Shown: positions 5,101 to 24,177 of the stretch, piece after piece | How positions within the stretch are numbered: position 1 is the stretch's first letter | Layout: each line of letters starts with the position of its first letter | Source of the DNA: Pelagibacterales bacterium SAG-MED11 | Lineage (GTDB): Bacteria; Pseudomonadota; Alphaproteobacteria; Pelagibacterales; Pelagibacteraceae | Direction of reading: 5' to 3' | Length of the DNA stretch: 64,000 bases | NCBI GenBank assembly: GCA_014654265.1 | Contig: JACWDI010000001.1 | Span: forward strand, 62,001 to 126,000 | The notes under the pieces: generated by a model | What the model was told of the DNA's origin: nothing | What the model saw: only the letters and a program-made list of their open reading frames with translations | Databases searched by the model: none | Made by a program: the position numbers and the translations under genes

Positions 5101-6236
5101 AGCATTTTATATATTTCTGTTATAGCTTCATCTTTAGTATTATTTTTATCATTGAGTATTGTTGTTAATAAATAAGGTCCTTTATTGATTGAGTTTGTAA
5201 CTGAGATATTTAATGAATGAATGTTTGCATCTAATATTTGTTGTATAACAGTATCGTTTAACTCAGTTCCAATTTTGAAAATTCCTTCTTCTTCATCGCT
5301 TATCTTTATATCTTCATGCAAAAATTTTCCATACAATGACTCCCTTGAAACAAATATGTCTTTTAAACCGTCATTTGCTAACTTCTTTGCACTTAAGAAA
5401 TTAATTTTTTCACCTAAAGTAATGACTACTTTTCCAGTTTTTGCATCTACTACTTCCTCAGAAAAATTCTTTGCTTTATAGTTTTCTGGGTTAAATTTGG
5501 TTTTCCATTTCTCTGTTTTTGCATCATAAGTATATTTTTCATTCTCATAAAATTCATTAGCAATTTCTGATTTTGTAAAACCTAAAGCAAGTAATAATGT
5601 TGAGGCAAGAATTTTTTTCTTTCTATCAATTTTAAAATATAGATAATCCTTAACATCATATTCAAAATCTAACCACGATCCTCTATTAGGAATTACTCTA
5701 CAATTAAATAAAAGTTTTCCACTAGCATGTGTTTTTCCTTTATCATGATCAAAGAAAACACCTGGACTTCTATGCATTTGATTTACTACAACTCTTTGAA
5801 CACCATTTGTAATGAATGTTCCACTATTTGTCATCATTGGAACTTCACCCATGTAGACTTCTTGTTCTTTAGCTGACAATATATCTTTAGTATTATTTTC
5901 AGGATCAATTTCGTAAACTACCAATCGTAAAGTACATTTTAGAGCAGATGAATATGTTAGTCCTCTAGTTATACATTCCTCAACATCAAATTTTGGTTTT
6001 TCTAATCTATATGAAACGTATTCTAAAGTAGCCTTATCATTAAGATCTTCTATTGGAAAAATACTCTTAAAAACTCTATCAAAACCTTTAGTTAAATCTC
6101 CTGCATTAGTGTCGAAAAAAGTTAACTCATCATATGAGTTTTTTTGAACCTCTATAAGATTTGGAATAGATAAACTCTCTTTAAGTTTACCAAAACTTTT
6201 TCTAACGTTCTTTTTTTCCGTAAAAGATATTTGCAT
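2148..6236 (-). CDS. rpoB: DNA-directed RNA polymerase subunit beta
   Basis: The 1362-residue beta subunit of RNA polymerase, a normal length for alphaproteobacteria. The rifampicin-pocket region is near residues 514-545 ([20 protein letters not shown] followed by VSALGPGGL). It has the wild-type Asp, His and Ser at the classical resistance positions, so rifampicin sensitivity would be expected (inference). The C-terminal clamp region with [20 protein letters not shown] is intact. It sits between rplL (54-base gap) and rpoC in the universal order. Confidence 0.99.
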
Positions 6237-7875: not shown

Positions 7876-8306
7876 TATTCTTTAACCTCTATGCCCATTG
7901 ATCTAGCTGAACCTGAAATAATCTTTACCGCTTGCTCTAAATCTATAGCGTTTAAATCTGCCATCTTTTGTTTAGCTATATCTTCAGCTTGTTTTTTTGT
8001 AATTGATGCAACTATATTTCTTCCTGGTTCTTTAGAGCCACTTTTTAATTTTGCTGCTTCTCTAATAAAAAAAGATGCTGGTGGAGATTTTATTTTAAAA
8101 TCAAATTTTTTATCTTTATAGACTGTGATTTCTACTGGAACAGGTTTACCAGCTAATGATTTCGTTTTATCATTAAATGCTTTACAGAATTCCATAATAT
8201 TTACACCACGCTGTCCTAATGCAGGACCAACTGGGGGTGCGGGATTAGCTTGGCCACCTTTAATTTGTAATTTTATAAATCCACTTATTTCTTTTTTTGC
8301 TGCCAT
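7875..8306 (-). CDS. rplK: 50S ribosomal protein L11
   Basis: L11, 143 residues, which binds the GTPase-associated region of 23S rRNA. The proline-rich N-terminal segment ([20 protein letters not shown]) and the C-terminal rRNA-binding domain are both present. It follows nusG by 3 bases and overlaps rplA by one base. Confidence 0.98.
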
Positions 8307-8309
8307 TTT

Positions 8310-8840
8310 TTAACTTGCTTTCTCCACTTGATTGTATTCTAAATCAACTGGTGTTGGTCGACCAAATATAGAAACTGAAACTTTTAATCTAGATTTTTCT
8401 TCATCTATCTCTTCAACCATTCCACTAAACGAAGCAAATGGCCCATCTATAACTTGAACTTTTTCTCCAACTGCGTACTCTATAGCAGATTTTGGCTGAG
8501 CTACACCATCTTTTATTTGGCCTAAAATCTTATCAATTTCTTTATCAGATACTGGAACGGGCATACCTTTTGTTCCTAAGAAACCACTTACTCTCTTTAT
8601 ATTTTTTATCATATGATAAATGTTGTTATCCATTTCACTTTTAATAAGAACATATCCAGGAAAATATTTCTTTTTCCTTTGAATTCTTTTACCTCTCTTA
8701 ACTTCTGTAACATCGTGAGTAGGCACAATAATTTCTTCAAACTTATCTGAAATCTTAGCCTTATCAGCTTCTTCTCTAATTAGACCGGCCACTTTGTTTT
8801 CAAAGCTTGAATGTGATTGAACTATGTACCAATTTTTCAT
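8310..8840 (-). CDS. nusG: Transcription termination/antitermination protein NusG
   Basis: NusG, 176 residues: an N-terminal NGN domain that contacts RNA polymerase (starts KNWYIVQSHSSFE) and a C-terminal KOW domain (about residues 122-170, VGEKVQVIDGPFASFSG). It supports processive elongation and links RNA polymerase to Rho or to S10. Its ATG overlaps the secE stop by one base. Confidence 0.98.
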   Translation of the reverse strand: MKNWYIVQSHSSFENKVAGLIREEADKAKISDKFEEIIVPTHDVTEVKRGKRIQRKKKYFPGYVLIKSEMDNNIYHMIKNIKRVSGFLGTKGMPVPVSDKEIDKILGQIKDGVAQPKSAIEYAVGEKVQVIDGPFASFSGMVEEIDEEKSRLKVSVSIFGRPTPVDLEYNQVEKAS

Positions 8841-10705: not shown

Positions 10706-11449
10706 ATGAACAAATCATCATTTTTTATCATTGGCCAGCATACTGTAGTAGAAGCATTAAGAAATCCAAAAAGGAAGGTTTTAAGAGTTTTTTTAACTGA
10801 GGAAAGTAAAAAAAATATTCATCGAAAAAGTCCAAAAAAAAATCTACTAGAAAATGTTAAAGTATATTTTAAGACTAAAAAAGAATTAGATAAATACAGC
10901 ACTAAAGAAAATTTGTTACACCAAGGTTATGTGGCAGAAGTTGAGCATCTTGAAAAACCAATTCTCAAAGATTTTATAAAAGAAAAAAAAGAAACAACTC
11001 TTGTTTGTCTGGATGGAGTAACTGACCCTAGAAACATCGGATCGTTAATTAGAAGTGCAGCTTCATTTAAAATTGATGGAATTATAATCAAAGAAAGACA
11101 TTTTCCAAATGAAAGTAAACTCATGTATAAAGCGGCAAGTGGTTCTATAGAATATATAAATATTTTTGAAGTATCAAATATTAATTCGACGTTAAAAAAT
11201 TTAAAAAACAAAAATTTTTGGGTTTATGGTTTTGATGGTCGTGGTGATAAAGATTTTACAGATATTAAATGGCAAGGAAACAATGTTTTGCTATTTGGAT
11301 CAGAAGGCTCTGGTATGCATGAACATACCTCAAAATACGCTGATTTTTTGGTTAAAATAGATATAGATAGAAAAATAGAAAGTTTGAATATATCAAATAG
11401 TGCAGCTATTGTATTCCACCATTTAAATTATTTAAAAAAAAATAGTTGA
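10706..11449 (+). CDS. rlmB: 23S rRNA (guanosine-2'-O)-methyltransferase RlmB-like (SpoU/TrmH family)
   Basis: A 247-residue SPOUT methyltransferase. An N-terminal substrate-binding L30e-like domain (about residues 1-80, IIGQHTVVEALRNP) precedes the trefoil-knot domain with motif 1 DPRNIGSLIRSA, motif 2 LLFGSEGSGM and motif 3 LNISNSAA, which bind AdoMet. The domain order fits RlmB, which 2'-O-methylates G2251 in the 23S P-loop. TrmH-type tRNA specificity cannot be fully excluded. It is followed by tRNA-Thr on the same strand. Confidence 0.9.
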   Translation: MNKSSFFIIGQHTVVEALRNPKRKVLRVFLTEESKKNIHRKSPKKNLLENVKVYFKTKKELDKYSTKENLLHQGYVAEVEHLEKPILKDFIKEKKETTLVCLDGVTDPRNIGSLIRSAASFKIDGIIIKERHFPNESKLMYKAASGSIEYINIFEVSNINSTLKNLKNKNFWVYGFDGRGDKDFTDIKWQGNNVLLFGSEGSGMHEHTSKYADFLVKIDIDRKIESLNISNSAAIVFHHLNYLKKNS

Positions 11450-11482: not shown

Positions 11483-11558
11483 GCCCTTGTAGCTCAGCTG
11501 GTAGAGCAATTGATTTGTAATCAATAGGTCCGCGGTTCGAATCCGTGCGGGGGCACCA
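11483..11558 (+). tRNA. trnT: tRNA-Thr (anticodon TGT), host gene of the island
   Basis: 76-nt cloverleaf with encoded CCA. The acceptor stem GCCCTTG pairs with CGGGGGC through two G-T wobbles. Anticodon stem ATTGA/TCAAT encloses loop TTTGTAA, giving anticodon TGT. Its last 49 bases plus 2 downstream bases recur exactly at 21385-21435, so the gene was reconstituted at the left edge of an inserted element. Confidence 0.97.
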
Positions 11559-11560
11559 TC
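11510..11560 (+). repeat. Left 51-bp attachment-type repeat (attL) within tRNA-Thr
   Basis: Bases from the anticodon stem to two bases past the tRNA 3' end are identical over 51 positions to 21385-21435, in the same orientation. A 3'-tRNA repeat at both ends of a foreign-looking block is the hallmark of tyrosine-integrase insertion (established knowledge). Calling this copy attL is inference. Confidence 0.9.
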
Positions 11561-11660
11561 AAATACTTGTTTATTTACAATAAACTTAAAGATTACTTCA
11601 ATTTTTTTGAAAATAAAAATCGTTGAATAAGACTATAGAATGGAAGGAAGAAGAACTGAC

Positions 11661-11683
11661 TGTAGTGAATTTGTAGTGAATTT
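11661..11683 (+). repeat. Left inner tandem repeat (candidate integrase arm site)
   Basis: Two adjacent copies of the 11-mer GTAGTGAATTT preceded by T, identical over 23 bases to 21289-21311 and in the same orientation. It starts 100 bases inside the left 51-bp repeat. The surrounding 11559-11808 interval has no convincing ORF. It also holds a small palindrome at 11569-11585 (GTTTATT, 3 bases, AATAAAC) that could help end the tRNA-Thr transcript. Confidence 0.7.
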
Positions 11684-11808
11684 CAATTATCTAATAAAAG
11701 CTTATAGATTAAAAAACCTAGTTCGATAATAATTAAAGCTTCTAACATTATACGATACTAAAAAAACAAACTAATAAGGTTTATAATATCTATAATTAAT
11801 TCCATAAA

Positions 11809-12300
11809 TTAAATCTTTTTTTCTCTTACTTTTTTTCTCCAGGTCCAAGGATAATCAAATTTCATTTTCCAGAGACCTAAATTATTATTTTTAGCATACT
11901 CTTGGTCTTCAGCAAATTTCTTTTTTGAATAATATGAATAATCAAATGCGTAACCACTTCTTACTAGATATCTTGATAAGCTTTTGTTATTAACAAAACA
12001 TTCAGCTAATATTCTTTTATATTTGTCTGGTTTCTTTTCTTTTATGCATGAAACTTTATTATTTCCTATTCTTTCAACTAAAATTTTTTTTGATAAATCA
12101 CCACAAAAAACTTCTGTATTGTCATCATAGCAAATTTGTTTTTTTCCTCGATAATAACTTTCTGGAGTATCTATTCCTGAAAATCTAATTTTTTCACCAT
12201 TAAGAATAATGGTATCCCCATCAATTACTTTCAAATCATAAGCTAATGAGTAATTAAATGAAATTAAAATAAATATTAATGATAGTAAGATTTTATTCAT
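11809..12300 (-). CDS. Exported thermonuclease-like protein (SNase family)
   Basis: 163 residues with a cleavable signal peptide (about residues 1-20, MNKILLSLIFILISFNYSLA) followed by a staphylococcal-nuclease OB-fold. Visible motifs are VIDGDTI (Ca-binding Asp), IRFSGIDTPES (catalytic Arg and Glu, and the DT pair) and YKRILAECF for the second catalytic Arg. It is likely a periplasmic or secreted Ca-dependent nuclease. It is the last gene of the minus-strand island run, 12 bases after its neighbour. Whether it serves nutrient scavenging, defence or a transfer function is unknown. Confidence 0.85.
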   Translation of the reverse strand: MNKILLSLIFILISFNYSLAYDLKVIDGDTIILNGEKIRFSGIDTPESYYRGKKQICYDDNTEVFCGDLSKKILVERIGNNKVSCIKEKKPDKYKRILAECFVNNKSLSRYLVRSGYAFDYSYYSKKKFAEDQEYAKNNNLGLWKMKFDYPWTWRKKVREKKI

Positions 12301-12312
12301 TATTGGGTAAAA

Positions 12313-13035
12313 TTAGAAATTCATTCCACTTAAGATATAATCTGTATTAACCTGGTTGTAATTGTAAGCTTCATCAATTTTTTTATTTTTATCCCTTCCT
12401 ACTAAACTTAAGATTAATGTATCTGTAAAAAATTTATTAATTTTAGAATTATCACTTCGTTCTGCTTTAATAGCTTTTAAGGGGCCTAAAAATAATTTAT
12501 GTTTAACTAATAATTCTGTTCCTTTTTTTTTACCAATTAAAGATTTTTTATTTTCAGTAGAAAATGCTGCTGCTGTAATAAATCTTTGAATATCACCAAC
12601 ATCCTTATTATTACTGCCATCCATTTTTGGTAACACACCATCAATTTCTAGTCTTGCATAAAATAGGGTATTAAAAATAACTCTAAACATGTACAGGCCT
12701 TCGTTTGAAATTTTTACCTTAAGTTTATTCGAATAAACATTTTCATTTATTTGACTCACGCTAAGATTATACATTTTGGTAATACTAGCTTGCTTTGAAG
12801 ATAATTCTCCTGCCAAGGCTGCATATTTATGAATACTAGTATCATAATCAGGAATTTTTGAAGTATCATAACCACTCTTTTTATTTTTTGGAACTTCTGT
12901 TGAAATACCAAAACTACCCAATGCTAATAATGCAGAAATCCCTATTGACCAATAATTAAAATTATTCATAAAGAAATAAATAGAAAGACCACTGAAAGCA
13001 ATTCCTTGGAAAATATAGTAAGGCTGATGTATCAC
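12313..13035 (-). CDS. Hypothetical membrane protein
   Basis: Not recognised. 240 residues with two hydrophobic segments near the N-terminus (about residues 7-23 and 27-45), then a mostly polar domain containing YARLEIDGVLPKMDGS and a Lys-rich patch (KGTELLVKHKLFLGPLKAIK). It is likely membrane-anchored with a cytoplasmic or periplasmic C-terminal domain. It lies 18 bases downstream of the next membrane protein in the same run, so it is probably co-expressed. Confidence 0.7.
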   Translation of the reverse strand: MIHQPYYIFQGIAFSGLSIYFFMNNFNYWSIGISALLALGSFGISTEVPKNKKSGYDTSKIPDYDTSIHKYAALAGELSSKQASITKMYNLSVSQINENVYSNKLKVKISNEGLYMFRVIFNTLFYARLEIDGVLPKMDGSNNKDVGDIQRFITAAAFSTENKKSLIGKKKGTELLVKHKLFLGPLKAIKAERSDNSKINKFFTDTLILSLVGRDKNKKIDEAYNYNQVNTDYILSGMNF

Positions 13036-13053
13036 TATTTTAAAATCTCTTTT

Positions 13054-13587
13054 TTATTTTGTATATTTACAATATTTCTCTAAGTCTACTGCAGAACTTT
13101 TACTTAAACCCATAAGATTAAGATTATTTGTTTGAGTGTCTAAACCATATTGATATTCAATTTGAATATTATCTTTTGATACATAACAGCTCTCCTCATA
13201 GTTATTGGTTTTTTCAAGCAAATCTTTAGTTGTTGAATATGCTCTTCTTGTTGTTACAGCAAACCCATCATCAGTATCATGAGTATCAAATTGATGAGTG
13301 GTAGAATTATATTTAATTATCTCACCATCAACTTCTCTTTCAGAAGTATTTTCAGATATATCTTTATTATCATTGTTTAAAATTTCCTCTATTGGATGTG
13401 GCTTTTTAAAAATATGATAAGCATAAGCTGCTAGAATAAGAAATATACCTAAGGCAACAAGAAATAAAGCTAACGCTCTAGTGTAGCCCCAAACACTTTT
13501 TGTTCTTCTTAGTCTTGCTTTTTCATCAATATATTTATTTACCGGTTCATAATCATGAACATTGTATTGAATTTGATCGTTAGACAT
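13054..13587 (-). CDS. Hypothetical single-span membrane protein
   Basis: Not recognised. 177 residues: a polar N-terminus of about 32 residues, one membrane helix at about residues 35-57 (ALALFLVALGIFLILAAYAY), and an acidic Asn/Thr-rich remainder with two cysteines (CYVSKD and KYCKYTK), which suggests an oxidised extracytoplasmic domain. Its start overlaps the stop of the 598-residue coiled-coil gene by one base, which points to a joint function. Confidence 0.7.
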   Translation of the reverse strand: MSNDQIQYNVHDYEPVNKYIDEKARLRRTKSVWGYTRALALFLVALGIFLILAAYAYHIFKKPHPIEEILNNDNKDISENTSEREVDGEIIKYNSTTHQFDTHDTDDGFAVTTRRAYSTTKDLLEKTNNYEESCYVSKDNIQIEYQYGLDTQTNNLNLMGLSKSSAVDLEKYCKYTK

Positions 13588-15383
13588 TATTTCTTCTTAT
13601 CATAGTCAGGAGCAGTAAATGGTCCTTTCTTTAATAATTCATTATCATCTGTTGGAAGTGGAACATAAACGATTTCTTTTCTTATAACTTCTTTTGGAAC
13701 TTCAACTTTCTCGTAAACTATTTTTTCACCAACAAATTTTTCAACCTCAACCTTTTTTTCAACTATTTTTTCTACTTCTTTTTCAACTATTTTAATATTT
13801 GGGTCTCTAAACCTTTTAATTTTTCCCCAAATATATTTATTGATTAAAACAAAAAATTTAGAAATTCTGGTTCCTAATCCTTTCCAGTTAGCTGTTCTTT
13901 TATTCCTTATTATATGTAGTCTTGGATCAAGTAATACCAAACTTGCAAAAGCTAACATTGTTCCAGTTACTGATATAATAAAGCTTAAAACACCAAACCA
14001 TAACCAAAATGCAGCAGCCAGAGCTCCACTTGGTATATCTGCATAGACAGAATCTGATACTTTTGTTTCTGCTTTTATTGCTTTTTTTTCAAATTCAATT
14101 ATTTTTGTATTCAGATTAGAGATCTGTCTGTCTATTGCCTCATTATCAAGTCTACTATTTTTATTGAACACTGAAAATAATTTATCAAACCAACCTCTTT
14201 CTGTAATTGATTTGACTTTTTGTTTTTCTAATTGAAATATTTGTTCATTGATTTCATTAATTTCATTATTGTAATCAATTATAAACCAGTCCTTCAACCA
14301 TGTAGCAACCCTATAAACTTGACTGTCTGGTGCTAAATCATCGATACCAGTCCCCTCTCCATTTGATATTAATTCAAGTCTTTCAGCTTCTAATTTTTTT
14401 ATTCTTTTAATCTTTTCTTCATCATCCAAATTATATTGCGTCTTGTTTCCCTCTAATGCAGCAATATTTTTTGCTATAATTTCTAATTCATCTTTTAATG
14501 GTTTTGTCTTAGATTGTATTTCAGAATTTTCAATTTCAATTGCACCTGAAGAACTTTTTCCTTGAGCGTTAATTAAAGAAGAAAGTTTAGACTCTTTATC
14601 TCTTTTTTCTATTTCATAGTTGTTAATTGTTAATTTATTTGACTCAATAGAATTAGTTATAGTTTTTTTATTAGAATTAAAAAACTTACCATCAATTTGT
14701 CCTGTTAATTCAACATTTTGATTTCTTAAGTCGGTAATATCGGAATTTAAAGTATCAATTTGTTTTCGTAATTCATCAATAGCTGATGTGTTAGTTCCAC
14801 TATCTTTGATATCTTGAATTCTTTTTTGACCTGATACATTTATTTCACTTATTTGCTTATTAATTTCTGATCTTTGTTTTCTTAGTTCATTAATCTCACC
14901 ATCAAATTGTTTAATATTAGTATTGTCTTCTAATTGTTCGAGTTGAGTATTAATACTGTGATACTTGACAATTTTCTTATCAACTATTTTTGTTCTCTCA
15001 CGGTTAATTCTCTCAAAACCAGTTACTATTGTTTCAAAAGTTGAAACATTAACTAACAATAAACCAACCAAGAAAATAATTTTCCAATAAAGTCTTACAG
15101 AGTAATAAACTGCTGTTGCTAATGGAATTTTTGTAAGTTCAACGATAGCTACAATAAAAAAGATACCACCAAAAGTTATGTCATTTAATCTGAGTGATCG
15201 ACCTGATAACTCATCTACATTTTCAATTCCTTGTGCATTTATAATAACTATAATTGCTATACAAATACCAATGATCGCTACTAAAATTTCTACAGTCCAT
15301 GCCATATTCAATAGAAACTTTCCCTTAGATCCTGTTTGAGATTGAGGGTAAAATTTATTAAATATTTTATCTAAATTAGGCAT
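13587..15383 (-). CDS. Large membrane protein with central coiled coil
   Basis: Not recognised to a family. 598 residues: hydrophobic helices at about residues 27-50, 72-96 and 99-116, then a long heptad-like coiled-coil region (about 125-430) rich in Glu, Lys, Ile and Asn. A further hydrophobic stretch lies at about 450-486 (FWLWFGVLSFIISVTGTMLA). The tail carries alternating VEK-type repeats (VEKEVEKIVEKKVEVEKFVG) ending in a Pro-rich end. The architecture recalls membrane-tethered scaffold or mechanosensor proteins, but no function can be assigned. It overlaps the TerB-like gene upstream by 8 bases. Confidence 0.75.
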   Translation of the reverse strand: MPNLDKIFNKFYPQSQTGSKGKFLLNMAWTVEILVAIIGICIAIIVIINAQGIENVDELSGRSLRLNDITFGGIFFIVAIVELTKIPLATAVYYSVRLYWKIIFLVGLLLVNVSTFETIVTGFERINRERTKIVDKKIVKYHSINTQLEQLEDNTNIKQFDGEINELRKQRSEINKQISEINVSGQKRIQDIKDSGTNTSAIDELRKQIDTLNSDITDLRNQNVELTGQIDGKFFNSNKKTITNSIESNKLTINNYEIEKRDKESKLSSLINAQGKSSSGAIEIENSEIQSKTKPLKDELEIIAKNIAALEGNKTQYNLDDEEKIKRIKKLEAERLELISNGEGTGIDDLAPDSQVYRVATWLKDWFIIDYNNEINEINEQIFQLEKQKVKSITERGWFDKLFSVFNKNSRLDNEAIDRQISNLNTKIIEFEKKAIKAETKVSDSVYADIPSGALAAAFWLWFGVLSFIISVTGTMLAFASLVLLDPRLHIIRNKRTANWKGLGTRISKFFVLINKYIWGKIKRFRDPNIKIVEKEVEKIVEKKVEVEKFVGEKIVYEKVEVPKEVIRKEIVYVPLPTDDNELLKKGPFTAPDYDKKK

Positions 15384-15867
15384 TAATCTTTTCTGTTTTC
15401 TTCTTTATTAAGTTTGTAAATTTTAAAAATAAATTCGAAGCTATATCTTTAAAATTATCTGATAAATCCCTCTTTACTCCAAATATTTTACTTACTTCTC
15501 TAATATCATCATCTTCATCTTGTGAATAAAGATTATCAGTATGACCCAACCTATATAATACTGCTATTATAAATTCTAAAAAATCAGGCTGATCATCTTT
15601 AAGTAATTTTTTGAGATTTAATGCATGATGTGTAATTGGATTTGTATCATTGCTTGCTTCTAATATAATTTTTTTTAATGTATTTCGTTGAGCAGGTTCA
15701 TGGGGAACAATTGATAAAATTTCAGATTCTTCTCTTTCAGAAAAATGACCATCTGCTTGACATATTTTAGTTGCAAGAATTAAGACACCAATAACACAAA
15801 TAGTTTGTTTACTTTCATAATGATATTTTTCCCAAAGATCAATTTGTGACATAATTGATCTAATCAT
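15376..15867 (-). CDS. TerB-like (tellurite resistance / DjlA-type) domain protein
   Basis: 163 residues, all-helical. The segment VLILATKICQADGHFSEREE followed by ESEILSIV matches the metal-binding first repeat of the TerB/DjlA fold (Asp and Glu in the xADGxxxxxE pattern), and a second acidic half includes DEDDDIREVSKIFGV. TerB domains act in membrane-linked stress and phage-response complexes (family knowledge). Start may be the first Met (MIRSI) or Met6 (MSQID). It overlaps the coiled-coil membrane gene by 8 bases, so the two are translationally coupled. Confidence 0.75.
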   Translation of the reverse strand: MIRSIMSQIDLWEKYHYESKQTICVIGVLILATKICQADGHFSEREESEILSIVPHEPAQRNTLKKIILEASNDTNPITHHALNLKKLLKDDQPDFLEFIIAVLYRLGHTDNLYSQDEDDDIREVSKIFGVKRDLSDNFKDIASNLFLKFTNLIKKKTEKINA

Positions 15868-15903
15868 AGAGTGACATATGAGTAAATCACTAATTACTAT
15901 TAG

Positions 15904-16170
15904 CTAATTTAGATTATAGCCTTTGCCATGCATGCAATTTCTAAAAGCTGCACTATTTTCTGCTAAGCTGGAGATAACTATACTTGTTTCTTCCGGAGCA
16001 CACATCAAAGGATTTTTGCATAGATATACTGGATATCGAGAGTCCGCGAAACTATCACAAAAACTTTTATCTAAATTTAATTGTGAATTATCACCTGATT
16101 GATTTGACCAAGTACCGGTTGAACACCCTGAAATAAATATTAACAATAGTAAGTATCTTAAATTTTTCAT
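15904..16170 (-). CDS. Small lipoprotein, hypothetical
   Basis: 88 residues with a type II signal peptide and a lipobox ending at Cys16 (LLLIFISGC). The mature part has four more cysteines (FCDSF, LCKNPLMCAPEE, FRNCMHG), likely forming disulfides in the periplasm. It overlaps the end of the PrsW-like gene by 4 bases (ATGA), so it belongs to the same operon. Function unknown. Confidence 0.7.
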   Translation of the reverse strand: MKNLRYLLLLIFISGCSTGTWSNQSGDNSQLNLDKSFCDSFADSRYPVYLCKNPLMCAPEETSIVISSLAENSAAFRNCMHGKGYNLN

Positions 16171-16979
16171 CTATATATTACATAATTAAAAAAATAATTA
16201 ATTGAAAATAATATAACAAATGTAACAATTACTACAAAAACAATATCACTTGTTTTTGGTATTACTTTAATGTTCTTTTCTCCAACTGCTTGTAAATTTC
16301 TTTGTTCTCTAAATACAAAAAAGGCTCTTATTAAAAAAACAAGTAATAAAATAAAAATATAATAGTCAGAGATACTTCCAGAAAATAAAATTAAATCATA
16401 CAACCCGTGTAAACATACCGGAAAAAATAAAGCCATAAATAAGAAAAATTTTCTATTATGTTTTTTGAAAATAGCATCCATTAAGAAGAAGCCCATAAAT
16501 ACACCCGCTAATGCATGAAGTGGTACAGCTGAAAATCCTCTTAATAACGCAACATATTTAGCTGCCTCTAAATTTTCTGCTCCAAGAACATATTCCCAAT
16601 TTTCTATAACAGCAAAACCTAGTGATGCAGCAACACCGTAAATAAGTGCATCCATTGGTTCGTCAAAAACATCTAGATGTAAACAATAAAATACTAATAC
16701 AAAAAACTTCATTGTTTCTTCAAGGAAAGCTGCTCTTAAAAAAGCCATATAAAAGTGACTGGACTCAAGACCAAAATTTAAAGTTTCTAAAAAACCTTCT
16801 AAAGCGATTATCAAAATCCCTAATGGAAAAGTTATTCCAATACCTAATAAAAAGGTAATCAAAACGACACGTGGAGGTTCAGGAAGTTTATCTCTTTTAT
16901 ATACGTACCAGAATATTAAAACTGCAGGTAAAATAGAATAAAATGCTAAATTTAAATAAACCTGTTCGCTTCCAAACAT
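16167..16979 (-). CDS. PrsW-family intramembrane metalloprotease
   Basis: 270 residues, about 7-8 membrane helices. Family motifs are visible: EETMK (Glu87, Glu88, Lys91), FDEPMD at residues 105-110, the GFAVIENWEY block with Glu126 and Asn127, and PLHA with His155. These are the conserved glutamates and histidine of the PrsW/CPBP-like active site. In Bacillus PrsW cleaves an anti-sigma factor, but many homologues have no known substrate. In this island the adjacent membrane proteins and lipoprotein are candidate substrates (inference). Confidence 0.88.
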   Translation of the reverse strand: MFGSEQVYLNLAFYSILPAVLIFWYVYKRDKLPEPPRVVLITFLLGIGITFPLGILIIALEGFLETLNFGLESSHFYMAFLRAAFLEETMKFFVLVFYCLHLDVFDEPMDALIYGVAASLGFAVIENWEYVLGAENLEAAKYVALLRGFSAVPLHALAGVFMGFFLMDAIFKKHNRKFFLFMALFFPVCLHGLYDLILFSGSISDYYIFILLLVFLIRAFFVFREQRNLQAVGEKNIKVIPKTSDIVFVVIVTFVILFSINYFFNYVIYR

Positions 16980-16984
16980 AAAAT

Positions 16985-17875
16985 CTATCTTTTATTTTTT
17001 TTTGAAGAACCTGTGAAAAATTTACCTAACCAAATAAATGGTAAAAATATAATAAACCAAAATTTCTTTAAAAGTAATAAAGCAGCTGCAATAATTCCTG
17101 GTTTCATCGCTTTAATACCAAGGGTTGATGCAAGTAGGGCTCCTATACCAGCGGCTGCAATTTTATCTCCAGATTTCCAATCTTTATACTCTTTTGTCGC
17201 ATTAAATTTATGTATTTTAGATAGGTTTAAAAGCAATTGTTCTTGATAACCATTATTCCCAGCCACATAGCTAGCAGTTGTATACCCTTCTCTACCTAAA
17301 ATTATTGCTGTTCCTTCAGTTGTTGAAGTGTTGTCTGACCATTGAATATTTAAAGCGTAATAAACTGAATTATACACACCATCTAGATACGGCTTTTTTT
17401 TCCAGGAGACATTTAAGACTGTAGGTTGTCCATTTTTTTTTCTTGTTTCATTGCTTGCTTTATAATTTTTTTTTATATCATTTATAAATTTATTTGGATC
17501 AACATCAGTCCAGTCATCAGTTTTTACATAACCAGAGTCAGTATAATAAAACGTATATTGTGAGCTGTAATCATCAATGGCATAAACACTAACATAGTCA
17601 AAAGTAACTCCGTTAAGCCAATATAGTAGTTGCTGTGCATCCTTTCCTTCTAATATTGAAAAATCTGAAGATATATTAATTTTTGAATTCGCTTCATTAA
17701 AATTAACTAAAGAAGGTCCTTCTTTCCAATTAAGGCTAGTATAGGCTTTATTCCATTCTTCTTCACTAACAGGAATTTTTGTATCTAATGCAACAGCTTT
17801 AAAACATAATAGAAAACCTAGTAAAACTATTTTAATAAAAAAATTAGCTTTTGATAAATAACATCTAAAAAACAT
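16985..17875 (-). CDS. Exported/membrane protein, hypothetical
   Basis: Not recognised. 296 residues: signal peptide or N-terminal anchor (about residues 9-29, FFIKIVLLGFLLCFKAVA), a largely beta-type extracytoplasmic domain of about 200 residues rich in Trp and Tyr, and a C-terminal hydrophobic hairpin (about residues 243-285, KIAAAGIGALLASTLGIKAM then FWFIIFLPFIWLG) with a basic tail. The C-terminal pattern resembles DUF2167-type membrane proteins, which is a tentative comparison. It lies 5 bases upstream of the PrsW-like gene, so it could be its partner or substrate. Confidence 0.7.
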   Translation of the reverse strand: MFFRCYLSKANFFIKIVLLGFLLCFKAVALDTKIPVSEEEWNKAYTSLNWKEGPSLVNFNEANSKINISSDFSILEGKDAQQLLYWLNGVTFDYVSVYAIDDYSSQYTFYYTDSGYVKTDDWTDVDPNKFINDIKKNYKASNETRKKNGQPTVLNVSWKKKPYLDGVYNSVYYALNIQWSDNTSTTEGTAIILGREGYTTASYVAGNNGYQEQLLLNLSKIHKFNATKEYKDWKSGDKIAAAGIGALLASTLGIKAMKPGIIAAALLLLKKFWFIIFLPFIWLGKFFTGSSKKNKR

Positions 17876-17881
17876 AAAATG

Positions 17882-18055
17882 TTATTTTACTCTAGTTAGC
17901 AATGCACCAATTGCACCAATTATTATAGGTGAAAATGATGATATTGCCGGAGGTAGAAATGGTGTCAAATTAATATTTGCAAAATTACCTAAAAGAAAAT
18001 CTGCAGCTGCAAAAACTAATAAGAGATAACCTACTATTGATATTATGTTTTTCAT
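17882..18055 (-). CDS. Small hydrophobic membrane protein (57 aa)
   Basis: An uninterrupted 58-codon frame starting ATG at 18055: MKNIISIVGYLLLVFAAADF, then a Gly/Pro-rich link and a second hydrophobic segment (SPIIIGAIGALLTRVK). Two predicted membrane helices with a positive C-terminus. It is the first gene of the nine-gene minus-strand run, 6 bases before the next start. The strong hydrophobic pattern and tight spacing support it despite its size. Confidence 0.6.
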   Translation of the reverse strand: MKNIISIVGYLLLVFAAADFLLGNFANINLTPFLPPAISSFSPIIIGAIGALLTRVK

Positions 18056-18070
18056 AAATTAGACTAGCTT

Positions 18071-18098
18071 TTTACAAGAGGTTTTTAAACAAGATAAT
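18071..18098 (+). promoter_or_regulatory. Candidate promoter in the divergent island spacer
   Basis: In the 64-base gap between the two divergent island runs, TTTACA (18071-18076) and GATAAT (18093-18098) are 16 bases apart on the plus strand, giving a start about 15 bases before 18120. The minus-strand run must start in the same gap, so the two promoters would overlap. Confidence 0.35.
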
Positions 18099-18119
18099 TT
18101 CAACTAATTATGTGATAAA

Positions 18120-19025
18120 ATGAGGATTTTAAAGATACCCACTTTCACACCATTTATCATTTCTCAAAGAAATATTAAAAAAAGTTTATTAATAATTAAT
18201 TTAGGAATTTTTCTCTCAATTTTTGCAGCAACCTCAGCAATAATTTCATTGTTTATAGAAAATAAAATTAGCCATTATGAAACAGAAATAATTGAAAATA
18301 AACAGATGAATTTATTTTTTAATAGATTTGAAAGAATGGTAAATGTTTATGAAGACTCAGAAAATAGATTATATAATTTTAATCAAAATTTTGCATCGTT
18401 TAACGAAATACTAGACTCGCTAAAAGGTGGAGAAAAATTAATAGATGATCGTGAATATTATTACTATCGTTTTTATTCTTATATTGCTTTTTTAGATGAA
18501 AATTTTGGTGAAGAGGATGATACAGAATGGATGACTTATTTTACAGAAAAAGAATTTTTAGAATATATTTATGATCCAATAGTTCATAAAAAATTTTATG
18601 ATGAACTTGAGGCTCAATCAATAAAGTTTAAAAATTACGTAAAAGAGTACAAAACTTTTGCCTCAGATTTAAAAAAAATTGATCCTTTTATTATTTTAAG
18701 CGATGAACAATTAATTAGTAATACTTATGAAGATTCTGTTGAGATTAATCAGCTGATTAATAAATATTTTACAAAAGTTTTTTACATGAATGATTTTTTA
18801 AGAGAATTTTTAATGAATATTAAAAAAATAGTATCTGACTGGTCATTATCATATAAATCCTTAGACTTAAGTAATTATCAAGAAATTGAAAAACTTTCTA
18901 ATTTAGAAAAAAAATTAATTATATTTGCTTTTGTTCTTCAAATAATAATTTTTTTTGTTACCCAATTTTTTGAAATTACATTTGCCTCAAAAGTTAAAAG
19001 AAAATTAAGTAGAAGGTCAATATGA
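18120..19025 (+). CDS. Membrane protein with extracytoplasmic helical domain, hypothetical
   Basis: Not recognised. 301 residues: cytoplasmic N-terminus of about 22 residues, membrane helix at about 23-47, a roughly 220-residue charged helical domain (EDSENRLYNFNQNF, Tyr-rich DDREYYYYRFYSY), and a second membrane helix at about 268-288 with a short basic tail. This two-helix topology with a periplasmic helical bundle matches sensor-type domains, but no kinase or cyclase output follows. It overlaps the next gene by 4 bases (ATGA), and the two proteins share the same layout. Confidence 0.7.
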   Translation: MRILKIPTFTPFIISQRNIKKSLLIINLGIFLSIFAATSAIISLFIENKISHYETEIIENKQMNLFFNRFERMVNVYEDSENRLYNFNQNFASFNEILDSLKGGEKLIDDREYYYYRFYSYIAFLDENFGEEDDTEWMTYFTEKEFLEYIYDPIVHKKFYDELEAQSIKFKNYVKEYKTFASDLKKIDPFIILSDEQLISNTYEDSVEINQLINKYFTKVFYMNDFLREFLMNIKKIVSDWSLSYKSLDLSNYQEIEKLSNLEKKLIIFAFVLQIIIFFVTQFFEITFASKVKRKLSRRSI

Positions 19026-19846
19026 GAAGAGGCAAACTTACCCCACAGTCAATTTTTTTTATTGTTTTAGCTGGTTTTTTTACTTTAAGTTCTTATTTTT
19101 TAGATCAACGTGTAATTATAAAAGAAGATGAAATAAGAGATGTTAATTTTTTATTGGAAAAAAAATATCAAAAACTTGAGGAAGAGACTTCTAATGCAGA
19201 AAGTTTAACTTATTTATCAAATAGAGTTGCTATAGAAACACATCAAAATAACTCTATAAGTACTATAAATTATAAATTTCATCTGTTTATTAAAAATAAT
19301 CGAGAAGTTGTAGAAAATTTTGATAAAGAAAAGTTAATAAGAGTAATAAGAGCTAATCTATTTACTGGATATCTAAATACAAGATCTAATATTTTTAATC
19401 TAAAATTAACAATCGACGATATGGCTTTTTCAAAAACAGATTATGACAACCTGGATTTAAGAAATAAAGTTAACAATTTATTCACTTGGGATGACACATT
19501 TTTTAAAAAGAATGACAAAGTATATTTTACTAACAATTACATCAAATCTGTTTATGCAGGAGATATCACCGTTGATGAAGGTTTGTTACGTGAGTTATAT
19601 GTCGAGGCTGTGAAACTTAATAAACAACTGTATTCAAATTATAAAATTTTAGATGAACTATCAGATTATTTTTTTGAAAAGGAAGAAAAATTACAAGATG
19701 AATATGATATTTTAGTTGTGAAACAATCTAAAATCAAAATACAAAAAAATTACTTTATATTATTAAGTATTTTGTTTCAGATTTTAGCTTTGCTTTCATT
19801 TCTTTTACTTTTTAGAAATTTTATTATTAGAACATTCAATAAATAA
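19022..19846 (+). CDS. Membrane protein with extracytoplasmic helical domain, hypothetical
   Basis: Not recognised. 274 residues with the same topology as the preceding gene: N-terminal membrane helix (about 11-28), a helical charged domain (about 35-235) including a coiled-coil part (VNFLLEKKYQKLEEETSNAE), and a C-terminal membrane helix (about 243-265) with a short basic tail. It may be a diverged paralogue or partner of that protein. Its stop overlaps the next start by one base. Confidence 0.7.
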   Translation: MRRGKLTPQSIFFIVLAGFFTLSSYFLDQRVIIKEDEIRDVNFLLEKKYQKLEEETSNAESLTYLSNRVAIETHQNNSISTINYKFHLFIKNNREVVENFDKEKLIRVIRANLFTGYLNTRSNIFNLKLTIDDMAFSKTDYDNLDLRNKVNNLFTWDDTFFKKNDKVYFTNNYIKSVYAGDITVDEGLLRELYVEAVKLNKQLYSNYKILDELSDYFFEKEEKLQDEYDILVVKQSKIKIQKNYFILLSILFQILALLSFLLLFRNFIIRTFNK

Positions 19847-20463
19847 TGAAAATGCTAAGAATAACTCTTTTTTTTCTAATCTTTTTTATACATTCTTATG
19901 TTCAAGCAAAAGAGTACAAAAGTGTACATGGTTTTATTATTAACTTAGATGAAGAATATCTTTACACATCACCTTTAGTAATGAATGACATCATTAACAA
20001 TACACAAAGTGAGTTTGCAGATATGTTTCCAGATTTTGATCATTTTAAAAATAGTATGAAAGTTTTAAAGGGTCAGGAATATAATGTAGAATATATTGTT
20101 GAAGTGAAAGATCCATATTCATCTAATAATATAACAATAACATCTGATAATTTAAAAGACTTTCCTCAATGGCAAGATGCGAATTTAAACGAAGAGAGTA
20201 TCGATACTATTTGTGCTTCATCTGAAATTGAATATTCAGCATTATGGAGTAAACCTGTGCGTTTTAAAAAATGTATTATTCACCCTAAAATTAAAAATAG
20301 TATTTTTTTAGAAATGGATGGGATTGTTGCTAACACTCAAGTTTCTCAACTACTTTTGTTTGAAAATGGTAAAATGTACATATTTAGCTTAACTTGTTCT
20401 AATAAGTGTAAACAATGGAAAAAAGTATTTTCCAACACAATCAACTCAATAAAATTTAACTAA
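19846..20463 (+). CDS. Exported protein, hypothetical
   Basis: Not recognised. 205 residues with a clear signal peptide (MKMLRITLFFLIFFIHSYVQA). The mature domain is about 184 residues, with four cysteines in two clusters (TICASSE/KKCIIHP and LTCSNKCKQW). It ends in KKVFSNTINSIKFN, similar in style to periplasmic proteins that end in a helix followed by a beta strand. It is coupled to the upstream membrane gene by a TAATG overlap. Confidence 0.7.
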   Translation: MKMLRITLFFLIFFIHSYVQAKEYKSVHGFIINLDEEYLYTSPLVMNDIINNTQSEFADMFPDFDHFKNSMKVLKGQEYNVEYIVEVKDPYSSNNITITSDNLKDFPQWQDANLNEESIDTICASSEIEYSALWSKPVRFKKCIIHPKIKNSIFLEMDGIVANTQVSQLLLFENGKMYIFSLTCSNKCKQWKKVFSNTINSIKFN

Positions 20464-20565
20464 CTAAAAAAAAGTATTAAAAAATATAAATAATCTTTTT
20501 TAAAACATTATTGAGTCCAAAAAAAAACATCTAATAATGATCTTAATAGAATCATGCATTGGATA

Positions 20566-20642
20566 TCACTCCTTTTCACACGTTTACGTTTTTTTTCATT
20601 ATTGCCCTTCCTTCGTAAACCTCTCGATAAGAAGAGGAGTGA
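20566..20642 (+). ncRNA. Candidate structured leader RNA upstream of the 192-aa exported protein gene
   Basis: Nested inverted repeats in the 227-base leader: TCACTCCT (20566-20573) pairs with AGGAGTGA (20635-20642), and inside it GTTTACG (20582-20588) pairs with CGTAAAC (20614-20620). An alternative local hairpin, CCTCT (20620-20624) with AGAGG (20633-20637), competes for the same 3' strand, which suggests two exclusive folds. This could be a regulatory leader. It matches no riboswitch class I can name. Confidence 0.4.
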
Positions 20643-20675
20643 AACCATTACCAATTACAAACTACTAACCTCTAA

Positions 20676-20682
20676 AAAGGAG
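20676..20682 (+). promoter_or_regulatory. Strong Shine-Dalgarno site for the 20691 gene
   Basis: AAAGGAG lies 8 bases before ATG 20691. Most genes here have weak or no such sites, so this strong one is notable. A CCTCT at 20668-20672 just upstream could pair with it. Confidence 0.6.
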
Positions 20683-20690
20683 CCTAAATT

Positions 20691-21269
20691 ATGAAGCGTT
20701 TTCTTTTCTTTATCTCATTACATCTATTCTTATTTCTATTAGTTATTGCTTATCAAGCTCAAGCAGATGAGCATAAATGGAATGTTCAGGAATTCGATAC
20801 CTATATTACAACTACTAAAGCTGGTGAAATAACACACGGAGATAAACTTAGATTTTTTATTAATAAGGGTGATTGCTCAAGAATGGGTATCTTATTTACT
20901 TTTTCAACTATGAGAGATAACAAAAATCTTAATAATTTACAAAATCAAACACTTCCAATTAAAATAAATGGTCATACAATTTATGACGGGGCTAAGGTCA
21001 TCTTAGTTCAACCTCTCTTTGGAGGAAGTATGAATATAGTAATGATGCAAGCACCAGGACTTAAAAGTATAGAAAATATGATTAGCTCAATAATGAGTTG
21101 GTATAATCAAGATAATTTTTTTGGAATTCAGTTAATTAGTAAACAAGGTTTTAATCCAGAAGATTATTTTGATATAACCGATAATAATTGGAAAATGGAT
21201 GGACTACCTGAAAAAATCTCAGAAGCACAATCAATTTGCTATGGTCCTAAGGTTATTGAAACAAGTTAA
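20691..21269 (+). CDS. Exported protein, hypothetical
   Basis: Not recognised. 192 residues with a signal peptide (about residues 1-25, ending AYQAQA) and a mature domain of about 167 residues, probably beta-rich, with two cysteines (GDCSRMG and SICYGP) that could form a disulfide. It has its own long leader and a strong ribosome binding site, so it is probably expressed separately from the three-gene run before it. It is the last gene before the right island junction; its stop lies 19 bases before the inner tandem repeat. Confidence 0.7.
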   Translation: MKRFLFFISLHLFLFLLVIAYQAQADEHKWNVQEFDTYITTTKAGEITHGDKLRFFINKGDCSRMGILFTFSTMRDNKNLNNLQNQTLPIKINGHTIYDGAKVILVQPLFGGSMNIVMMQAPGLKSIENMISSIMSWYNQDNFFGIQLISKQGFNPEDYFDITDNNWKMDGLPEKISEAQSICYGPKVIETS

Positions 21270-21288
21270 AGTTTTTTATTTTTCAACG

Positions 21289-21311
21289 TGTAGTGAATTT
21301 GTAGTGAATTT
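21289..21311 (+). repeat. Right inner tandem repeat (candidate integrase arm site)
   Basis: Same 23 bases as 11661-11683: two adjacent GTAGTGAATTT copies. It ends 73 bases before the right 51-bp repeat. If the element is circularised in thought, the two tandem repeats flank the core on both sides in direct orientation, the layout of arm-type sites around an attP. Confidence 0.7.
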
Positions 21312-21384
21312 ATTTAAGTTGCTTGACGAGGATTCCAGAAGTTAATAGTATCAGCGATAATGAAAGGAAATTTTAAGAAGCTTT

Positions 21385-21435
21385 TTGATTTGTAATCAAT
21401 AGGTCCGCGGTTCGAATCCGTGCGGGGGCACCATC
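21385..21435 (+). repeat. Right 51-bp attachment-type repeat (attR), tRNA-Thr 3' fragment
   Basis: An exact copy of 11510-11560, covering the anticodon arm, variable loop, T arm, acceptor 3' strand and CCA of tRNA-Thr plus 2 bases. No D arm or 5' acceptor strand precedes it, so it is not a functional tRNA. It abuts the nadK stop codon. Confidence 0.9.
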
Positions 21436-22206
21436 TTATGATGTTTCTCTTCTAAGCTGTTCAATCTTAATTTTTTTTTGAAGACTTTTATTTTTATCAT
21501 ATAAAAGATTGAAACTAACTTTTTTGTTAGTTTTAACGGTTATATTTTTTGCATTTCTTATTTCAATATTATCAGCTACAGCACTTATGGGTCTTTTTTT
21601 TGGATTTAAGTTTTTAATAACAATTTTGGATTTATCACTTACTATTTTTCCTTTCCATCTACGTGGTCTAAAAGGACTGATGGGAGATATAGATAATTTT
21701 TTTGAATTTAGACTCAATATTGGTCCATGAACTGAGAGATTATATGCAGTACTTCCAGCTGGTGTTGAGACGAGCACACCATCAGACACCAATTTTTTCA
21801 TAATTTGTTTAGACCCATAATTTATAGATAAAGAAGCAGCTTGCCTACTTTGTCTTAAAATTGAGACTTCATTAATTGCTAAATACTTTCTAGTTTGATT
21901 TTTATTATTCTTAACAATCATCTGTAATGGAGAAATGCTAATCATATTTGCTTTTGATAAATTTTTTATAATTGTTTTAGAAGAAAACTTATTCATCAAA
22001 AAACCATAATTACCTGAATTTATTCCATAAAAAATCTTTTTTGATTTCTGATTCTTCTTTAATGTTTGAAGCATAAATCCATCACCACCAATTACAATTA
22101 CAGTATTTGGTTTACTAATCTTATTTTTATTCAATTTTTTTAATAATTGCGATTTTATTTTTTTTGATTTTTTATTTGTGTCAGAAATAATTTGTATATT
22201 TTTCAT
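21436..22206 (-). CDS. nadK: NAD kinase
   Basis: 256 residues. It phosphorylates NAD to NADP with ATP or polyphosphate. Family motifs are VIVIGGDGFMLQTL (GGDG nucleotide-binding site, about residues 39-46), NSGNYGFL (about 64-71) and the SVHGPILSLNSK/SPISPFRPR block of the C-terminal beta domain. The stop codon directly touches the right island repeat, so before insertion it was convergent with tRNA-Thr. tRNA-Leu follows upstream on the same strand. Confidence 0.95.
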   Translation of the reverse strand: MKNIQIISDTNKKSKKIKSQLLKKLNKNKISKPNTVIVIGGDGFMLQTLKKNQKSKKIFYGINSGNYGFLMNKFSSKTIIKNLSKANMISISPLQMIVKNNKNQTRKYLAINEVSILRQSRQAASLSINYGSKQIMKKLVSDGVLVSTPAGSTAYNLSVHGPILSLNSKKLSISPISPFRPRRWKGKIVSDKSKIVIKNLNPKKRPISAVADNIEIRNAKNITVKTNKKVSFNLLYDKNKSLQKKIKIEQLRRETS

Positions 22207-22212
22207 TTATTG

Positions 22213-22298
22213 TGGTGCCCTCGGCCAGACTCGAACTGGCACTCCGCAAGCGGCAAGGATTTTAAGTCCTTTGTGTCTACCAATTTCACCACGAGGGC
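22213..22298 (-). tRNA. trnL: tRNA-Leu (anticodon TAA)
   Basis: 86-nt class II tRNA with encoded CCA. The acceptor stem GCCCTCG pairs with CGAGGGC, the anticodon stem AAGGA/TCCTT encloses CTTAAAA, and a long variable arm (TGCCGCTTGCGGAG) is present. Its first 36 bases and 61 bases of upstream sequence recur in diverged form at 24142-24238. Confidence 0.96.
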
Positions 22299-24116: not shown

Positions 24117-24141
24117 ATTAATCTTTTATAATAAAGTCTTC

Positions 24142-24177
24142 TAAGTCCTTTGTGTCTACCAATTACACCGCGAGGGC
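24142..24177 (-). pseudogene. tRNA-Leu fragment (5' half only)
   Basis: 36 bases matching tRNA-Leu positions 1-35 or so, with acceptor 5' strand, D arm and 5' anticodon stem. The 3' half is absent. It is a marker of an insertion boundary. Confidence 0.8.

Follow-up and report, generated by a model that had tools for sequence, protein, structure and literature searches.

The window analysed here is a 64,000-nt stretch of the genome of Pelagibacterales bacterium SAG-MED11, a member of SAR11. Between rlmB and nadK it holds a 9.9-kb block of 13 ORFs of at least 55 aa, enclosed by repeats of a tRNA-Thr core. The features of the locus, in window coordinates, are:

10706..11449, plus strand: rlmB (SpoU methylase), left chromosomal flank (Pfam)
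11483..11558, plus strand: tRNA-Thr (anticodon tgt), intact target gene (ARAGORN; Rfam)
11510..11560, plus strand: left core (att) repeat, the 3' part of tRNA-Thr
11661..11683, plus strand: left arm, a direct pair of 11-nt repeats at period 11, resembling integrase arm sites (repeat comparison)
11809..12300, minus strand: SNase-like nuclease, secreted, 163 aa (Pfam PF00565, 8.6e-17)
12313..13035, minus strand: 240-aa protein, no Pfam match (ORF; weak phrog_25594, 0.0044)
13054..13587, minus strand: membrane protein, 177 aa, accompanies the 598-aa gene (ORF)
13587..15383, minus strand: membrane coiled-coil protein, 598 aa (ORF)
15376..15867, minus strand: TerB-like, 163 aa (Pfam PF05099, 4.8e-7)
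15904..16170, minus strand: small lipoprotein-like, 88 aa (ORF)
16167..16979, minus strand: PrsW-like intramembrane protease, 270 aa (Pfam PF13367, 2.8e-34)
16985..17875, minus strand: DUF2167 protein, 296 aa (Pfam PF09935, 1.9e-40)
17882..18055, minus strand: small membrane protein, 57 aa (ORF)
18120..19025, plus strand: membrane protein, 301 aa (ORF, no Pfam match above cut-off)
19022..19846, plus strand: membrane protein, 274 aa (ORF, no Pfam match above cut-off)
19846..20463, plus strand: secreted protein, 205 aa (ORF)
20691..21269, plus strand: secreted protein, 192 aa, adjoins the right arm
21289..21311, plus strand: right arm, 11-nt repeat pair 100% identical to the left arm
21312..21384, plus strand: right-arm flank conserved in type A elements (alignment with L085 and L017)
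21385..21435, plus strand: right core (att) repeat, tRNA-Thr fragment
21436..22206, minus strand: nadK, right chromosomal flank (Pfam)

Repeat comparison within the window confirmed an earlier sequence-only reading that exact tRNA-Thr repeats bound this 13-gene block (11510-11560 and 21385-21435, identical at 51 of 51 nt) and that the second lies right against nadK, the right core ending at 21435 and the minus-strand nadK frame following from 21436. A second exact direct repeat, absent from that reading, lies further in: 23 nt at 11661-11683 recur at 21289-21311, some 100 nt in from the left end and 74 nt in from the right one. This repeat (family D7, 100% identity left versus right) consists of two 11-bp units in tandem, and the type A arm unit of the island is a TGTAGTGAATT pair. 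Judged by sequence, the island ends have the layout of a phage-type attP, with the 11-nt pairs as putative integrase arm sites.

The expectation that removing the block restores a compact locus was borne out: the window flanks, joined without the block, aligned with a relative (G021, locus L012) as a single 1616-nt block at 81% identity. Since a locus without the block exists in relatives, the 51-nt repeat is not due to chance. Among 19 genus loci with tRNA-Thr and nadK both in view, from genomes that are mostly incomplete assemblies, five are empty, eight are occupied with tRNA-Thr fragments and six are occupied with no detectable fragment. The earlier reading had named the presence of the same 13 genes here in most strains as evidence for a stable core region instead, but the 598-aa protein, the largest of the cargo, has matches in 4 of 250 genus genomes (its own included, one match being partial). 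The tRNA-Thr/nadK locus is an integration hotspot and not a quiet core locus, so the earlier picture of a discrete tRNA-borne island in a core locus holds for the island and its empty site but not for the locus itself. Elements piled up at tRNA-Thr in relatives are mostly of one or two genes. As controls, other tRNAs were searched for partial copies. In 37 genomes, none of high identity turned up for the window's tRNA-Gly or tRNA-Tyr, whose matches covered part of the query at 75-77% and are mostly as expected from another tRNA; for tRNA-Leu, partial copies were present but came from its 5' half. A count of genomes with at least two matches in the 51-nt search was dropped as a measure of hotspot frequency, since scoring was limited to three candidates in each genome and a match may come from another tRNA.

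The exact identity of the repeats had been taken as a sign of recent insertion or of selection on both copies. It says little about age, because many genomes of the genus have the 51-nt core stretch without change, and most tRNA-Thr fragments in the loci read show 88-100% identity. Homologous recombination between strains via rlmB/tRNA-Thr and nadK, with the repeats marking old insertions, would fit the six loci occupied without a fragment, as well as a tRNA-Thr/nadK locus in genome G008 that carries a related 88-aa/TerB/598-aa/177-aa module and no tRNA fragment. Such exchange creates neither tRNA fragments nor matched arm pairs at both ends, and we regard it as a quite improbable account of the island. 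Because of these fragment-less loci and the G008 module, we consider that homologous exchange or decay also takes part, with homologous exchange probably acting in addition to integration.

Arm sites were surveyed in 64 segments from 47 loci, of which 10 are type A; the other 54, termed type B or non-type-A, are all segments that are not type A, some armless ones included. When an arm pair was counted as a repeated 8-mer at spacings of 8 to 30, a pair of period 11 was present in 57/64 left arms and 39/64 right arms (37 with both). Other spacings gave 0-5 arms with a pair, except 22 (twice 11), found in 27 left arms. Left and right arms of the same element matched better than arms of different elements: 17.7/19 vs 13.3 in type A (n=10), 14.6 vs 11.9 in non-type-A (n=47) and 14.5 vs 11.8 in non-type-A after removal of duplicates (n=32), with 0 of 20,000 permutations reaching the observed own-arm mean in each of the three tests. 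For single elements, the own right arm was unbeaten in 9/10 of type A and 15/47 of non-type-A, a strictly better right arm from another element existing for 32/47 of the latter. The type A right-arm flank (21312-21384) has a whole or partial match in at least 13 of 250 genus genomes, and the type A flank pattern gave five matches in 399 genomes, each at a known tRNA-Thr element.

In one genome (G130, locus L095), a run of tRNA-Thr fragments carries differing arm sequences, and therefore one host enzyme could hardly serve them all. This bears on the idea of an integron-like system in which the elements are moved by the Xer-like recombinase conserved in the genus. In keeping with it, a PF00589 match is present in 58 of the 77 genus genomes searched, mostly one each; however, the gene of the window genome has SAM-like and catalytic domains only, and a single reader is unlikely where arms differ among the elements of one genome. 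We find this explanation very improbable.

Pfam search of the 13 island proteins found no recombinase domain or recognised integrase, and a search of 61 + 40 genomes placed no PF00589 match in the tRNA-Thr/nadK interval of the loci read. An integrase with the island's own type A arm sequence was not found in the genomes or viral contigs searched; the exact 20-nt arm pattern and the degenerate type A flank pattern each gave 0 matches in the viral contigs. Integrases with paired arms were found in related, often small, elements. In viral contig L054, a 56-nt exact core adjoins an integrase and arm pairs lie on both sides; its right arm matches element L106_0 at 19/22 and its left arm L095_0 at 18/22, the maxima of 200 shuffles being 15 and 16, respectively. 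Locus L289 (G396) carries cargo and only the 78-aa N-terminus of an integrase, whose start lies 96 nt before the fragment; its left arm matches L014_0, L109_0 and L116_1 at 20/22 (shuffled maximum 16), and its right arm is not above shuffles (best 16, shuffled maximum 16). Locus L144 (G272, contig cut) has in order an integrase, a TGTTGCA pair, a tRNA-Thr fragment and nadK, with an arm likewise not above shuffles (best 16, shuffled maximum 17). A relaxed core pattern matched at least 120 stretches in viral contigs. Among the 120 listed, read with L054 as positive control, one has arm pairs on both sides: L247, a phage contig with the same plan around a tRNA-Thr-like core beside its integrase. 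The arm pairs of L247 are not type A; this unrelated phage contig is not SAR11-like, given its 47.8% GC. L143, L152, L153, L154 and L054 contain both integrase and primase-like genes, and L054 and L153 a terminase small subunit as well. Protein P0001 matched only its own contig among the viral contigs and 324 records of named phages, all below 60% identity, with no Pelagibacter phage among the 60 listed.

Integrases of 415-509 aa in G028, G036, G054, G088, G202 and G213 were rejected as type A helpers, as no type A arms were seen by eye in the stretches viewed. Three of these integrases adjoin tRNA-Leu(tag).

In the smaller cassettes, the cargo start codon lies at a median of 92 nt from the core (44/51 within 75-115), a rule from which 10/54 elements depart. 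In relatives, this position is taken by the integrase start. From their sequences, the smaller elements at tRNA-Thr resemble att-int modules whose integrase gene has given way to cargo. The island could also be a decayed prophage or integrative element that once had its own integrase and lost it, leaving the block stuck and the repeats as fossils. The integrase remnant of L289 is what such decay would leave, and integrase-bearing elements do exist at other tRNAs, where a second core stands out clearly in 9/20 loci, at 2.5-8.3 kb. After such a loss the arms are expected to drift, yet the two arms of an element on average match each other, with no recognised integrase in the class, and the narrow cargo start position is unlike random decay. 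We consider this origin unlikely.

The cargo recurs in part in relatives. Homologues of the 177-aa protein adjoin whole or partial 598-aa homologues in L029, L299 and L300, and those of the 88-aa protein adjoin TerB/598-aa/177-aa homologues in L029 and L299. Type A element L088 has a homologue of the SNase-like 163-aa protein, and type A elements L085 and L090 have homologues of the 192-aa protein near the same end. A fold model of the 598-aa protein was discarded (mean pLDDT 55.5, pTM 0.26; 4 rows, 3 distinct sequences). PADLOC, applied to 10 of the 13 island proteins, reported SNc (1.6e-13) and, weakly, LmuB (0.0088), and nothing else. Restriction, Mokosh-like or Zorya-like genes, or else a surface lectin, are found in most other elements that share the island's arm type. 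By analogy, the island cargo (SNase, TerB, PrsW, DUF2167 and membrane coiled-coil proteins) is most probably a module against stress or phage.

Taken together, the data partly support the sequence-only reading and suggest, with good likelihood, that the island is an integrase-less integrative element moved in trans by a tyrosine integrase made elsewhere. On circularization, its ends would give an attP composed of the right arm pair, the tRNA-Thr core and the left arm pair. The tyrosine integrase, with the same core and arm-site specificity, would come from a temperate phage or small integrative element that co-infects or resides in the same cell, and would bind the paired arm sites. The circle would then insert within the anticodon-arm part of tRNA-Thr (we infer the crossover point, as we do excision); the element's own copy would rebuild the tRNA 3' end, and a fragment would be left at the far side. 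Repeated insertions could produce tandem arrays of elements with differing arm specificities. The enzymes that move tRNA-Thr passengers are probably borrowed from small phage-like elements. More generally, it is an evenly balanced proposition that SAR11, among marine bacteria the most abundant, carries enzyme-less, tRNA-anchored cassettes of 0.4-10 kb, the smaller mostly with cargo in place of integrase, each with an arm pair that would serve as an "address" for a single helper phage or satellite lineage, and whose arrays within one genome would answer to several helpers.

SAR11 genomes are small, with few recognised mobile elements, and their accessory genes nonetheless turn over. Elements that lack an integrase and sit at a single tRNA with readable address sites would offer a concrete and testable route for this turnover, defence-type cargo included, and the integrase expected to move a given element could be predicted from its arms. 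Tycheposons are tRNA-linked cargo elements of marine streamlined hosts, described with a tyrosine recombinase. The island resembles them in host and in cargo linked to a tRNA, and differs in that a domain search of its 13 proteins found no tyrosine recombinase. PICI are small phage satellites. PICMI are small phage satellites too (PMC10803314). Some integrase-bearing SAR11 relatives resemble such satellites in pairing an integrase with a primase-like gene; domain and PHROG searches found no integrase, primase, terminase small subunit or AlpA regulator genes in the island. With tRNA-targeted islands it shares the displaced tRNA fragment at the far end and the empty site in relatives but, by protein-domain searches, not an integrase of its own.

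Additive flexible genomic islands with tRNA direct repeats have been described in Actinomarinales (PMC7771536), Alteromonas (PMC4119200) and Methylopumilus, at tRNA-Lys (PMC10872708). As in the descriptions cited, cassettes are added at a tRNA, leave partial tRNA repeats and differ in presence between strains; the arm sites, integrase-position cargo and integrase-arm matches measured here set the SAR11 elements apart from those accounts. Dehalococcoides has 15 ssrA islands without an integration module, an example of CIMEs, for which a serine recombinase and accretion with a neighbour were proposed (PMC3146451). Like CIMEs as presented there, the island retains attL and attR without genes for recombination, integration or transfer, and tandem arrays form at one RNA gene; unlike in that account, the phage-type arm pairs of SAR11 differ between neighbours in one array. 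CALIN are cassette arrays lacking an integrase (PMC11389934). The SAR11 arrays are, in the terms of that source, similarly integrase-less, with the enzyme supplied from elsewhere (as proposed here for the island), and are distinguished by a core that is a tRNA fragment with arm pairs.

The sequence-only reading had claimed a 9.9-kb block between exact 51-bp tRNA-Thr repeats, and this was borne out: from tRNA-Thr to nadK, the island (window 11510-21435) spans 9.9 kb, holds 13 ORFs and is bounded by a 51-nt repeat of exact identity. A second exact repeat, of 23 nt and made of two tandem 11-nt units, lies in the same orientation at both ends: the left copy starts 101 nt past the left core (the repeated 3' part of tRNA-Thr), and the right copy ends 74 nt short of the right core. 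When the island ends are joined, the order becomes arm pair, core, arm pair, which is the attP layout of a tyrosine integrase; the role of arm pairs in such sites is known from phages lambda and L5.

The empty site anticipated by the same reading, tRNA-Thr and then nadK, is present in relatives. Among 25 genus loci with tRNA-Thr matches, 19 show both tRNA-Thr and nadK; five of the 19 are empty, eight are filled with at least one tRNA-Thr fragment and six are filled without a fragment. The joined flanks of the window align with the empty locus of genome G021 as a single 1616-nt block at 81% identity. This is a real island, mobile in evolutionary terms, and the tRNA-Thr/nadK locus is an integration hotspot; in genome G130 (locus L095), tRNA-Thr is followed by five fragments, one of them short. 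Forty additional loci were picked mostly for fragments or for arms of the island's type (type A) and are therefore unfit for frequency estimates.

Several side observations concern displaced tRNA pieces. In locus L094, a tRNA-Thr 5' fragment (nt 1-42; 8676-8717, oriented) adjoins rlmB and the full tRNA lies 1.4 kb beyond, as if an element had displaced the 5' half. Locus L032 carries a tRNA-Thr fragment and an element-type right arm beyond nadK (5830-5876, oriented), the tRNA-Thr/nadK site itself being empty. In the sister family (L043, L044, L047, L049, L050), tRNA-Thr fragments occur at 0.35-0.9 kb, four of them in L050, and period-11 pairs are almost absent from the arms examined. At 24139-24177 and 22213-22298, the window also holds a 39-nt copy (92%) of the tRNA-Leu(taa) 5' half, with similar upstream sequence, immediately in front of a 416-aa gene whose relatives are pentameric ligand-gated ion channels (1.6e-11 for the best PDB match); no period-11 pairs were seen at this copy. 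Of 23 genus genomes searched, nine have partial copies of the tRNA-Leu 5' half, the window's own genome among them.

The main result is wider than the island: a large class of integrase-less elements carries address-like arm sites. None of the 13 island proteins is a recombinase by Pfam, and the only PF00589 match in the window genome, which is 90.5% complete, is a gene with SAM-like and catalytic domains on another contig. The loci examined, from 61 genomes (of which 37 belong to the genus) and 40 further genus genomes, have no PF00589 match in the interval from tRNA-Thr to nadK, by searches that are blind to a recombinase of another fold. The arm survey took the 64 segments that separate consecutive core copies at 47 loci and looked for paired 8-mers differing at no more than one position. 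Pairs at spacing 11 occurred in 57 left arms, 39 right arms and both arms of 37 segments, while other spacings from 8 to 30 gave 0-5, save 22 (27 left arms), which is twice 11.

Arm sequence varies among elements, and the left and right arms of one element tend to agree. In type A (n = 10, window included), an element's own left and right arms matched at a mean of 17.7/19, against 13.3 between elements; for non-type-A elements (n = 47) the means were 14.6/19 and 11.9. None of 20,000 permutations attained the observed mean, a value that is not an exact probability because related elements are not independent. For single elements the agreement was clear in type A, the own right arm being unbeaten in 9/10, and looser in the others, at 15/47. 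Both arms of one element lie far apart, and keeping them in agreement needs upkeep. In genome G152 (L097), the left arm past the last fragment is nearly identical to the window's own repeat (left arm compared).

Integrase-bearing relatives were found. In an 8.9-kb viral contig (L054), a 328-aa integrase adjoins a tRNA-Thr core that is exact over 56 nt and is flanked on both sides by arm pairs; the contig also encodes a primase-like protein and the small subunit of a terminase and may therefore itself be a satellite. Relatives of its integrase occur in 23/399 genus genomes (17/300 in a smaller search). One, in genome G272 (L144), lies at a tRNA-Thr fragment directly against nadK, and others adjoin tRNA-Asn, tRNA-Gly, tRNA-Met and tmRNA. 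An integrase-side second core (at least 41 nt, same direction) was clear in 9/20 loci at 2.5-8.3 kb, and none was clear in the remainder within the stretch examined. Just before the integrase start, 17 of 21 loci with an integrase or its remnant (L054 counted) show an exact pair of 7-mers spaced by 11 or 12 nt, and four do not. A phage contig of 47.8% GC, not SAR11-like (L247), has integrase, arm pair, tRNA-Thr-like core and arm pair; this plan in a phage of quite different composition supports the pairs as integrase sites. Its core, at 8038 (oriented), has GGTCGCA pairs on both sides.

The contents of integrase-bearing elements include primase-like genes, with a terminase small subunit also in L153; two elements (L146, L291) hold just two to three small proteins, and L290 encodes type I restriction-modification (HsdM, HsdS and HsdR by Pfam). 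L290 and L294 are integrase-bearing elements at tRNA-Met, of 7.5 and 6.6 kb, and L294 resembles L290, HsdS being the part scanned. In G028, G088 and G213 (L284, L280, L281), integrases of 425-443 aa come immediately before a whole tRNA-Leu(tag) gene plus a second tRNA-like stretch.

Arm fits between integrase loci and elements were scored over 22 positions against the maximum of 200 shuffles. Arms of L054 beat all shuffles for elements L106_0 (19/22 vs 15) and L095_0 (18/22 vs 16), and the left arm of the remnant locus L289 (genome G396) fits three elements at 20/22 (shuffle maximum 16). The right arm of L289 and the arm of L144 each reached 16/22, not above their shuffle maxima of 16 and 17.

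Of 54 non-type-A segments, 51 have a right-most ORF that runs antisense to the tRNA, with a start codon at a median of 92 nt ahead of the core (quartiles 89-95; within 75-115 nt in 44/51), and integrases start 94 nt (L054), 96 nt (L144) and 96 nt (L289 remnant) before the matched tRNA stretch, the exact core start shifting by a few nt with alignment. These segments look like elements in which the integrase was swapped for cargo. L289 is an intermediate between integrase-bearing and cargo elements: besides arms and core it keeps 78 aa of an integrase N-terminus (phrog_1 match, 0.005; no Pfam match), after which come peroxiredoxin and methyltransferase genes. Type A follows a looser pattern: its right-most ORF is 99-209 nt away from the core, and three of the ten elements, the window's among them, have it on the opposite strand.

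Type A cargo was surveyed in 10 elements with both cores (median size 6.1 kb).

Cargo of type A elements
L017: type IIG restriction-modification and helicase; homologues in L090
L085: Mokosh-like helicase with Mrr and WYL proteins
L086: helicase and Mrr; homologue in L087
L088: SNase and MotA/ExbB protein with weak ZorA similarity
L030: autotransporter lectin; homologue in L094
L091: 1648-aa coiled-coil protein

The island's SNase has a homologue in L088, and its right-end secreted protein is common to L085 and L090. Two genomes have relatives of the island's 88-aa, TerB, 598-aa and 177-aa genes grouped together: G008 at this locus, and G115 on a different contig, some 4 kb away from a tRNA-Met. 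In G072 the 177-aa, PrsW and DUF2167 genes have relatives, and the 598-aa gene a partial one. This gene company suggests that the window's cargo may have a stress or defence role. Many cargo proteins of small elements (such as L014, L017, L025, L033, L093 and L099) have a leader in common: of 118 proteins, 13 bear GIVVLGLL or a near variant of it, joined to unrelated mature parts, and 17 a type IV pilin leader.

Mobilisation of the integrase-less elements in trans is the best explanation rather than a demonstrated fact; no helper integrase for the window's own type was found among the viral contigs and genus genomes searched. In a PDB comparison, residues 53-214 of integrase P0001 align with residues 69-228 of lambda integrase, whose arm-binding domain precedes this portion; the first 50 residues of P0001 therefore occupy the place of that domain. 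Among the titles and abstracts listed, which leave out most subscription papers, we recognised none describing arm sites, helpers or this tRNA-Thr array in SAR11, and absence from print is not established. According to PMC12416821, a transferred phosphonate operon in Pelagibacterales has tyrosine recombinases and tRNA genes beside it, and related systems appear in PMC3146451, PMC10872708, PMC7318151, PMC11389934, PMC7771536, PMC4119200 and PMC10803314.
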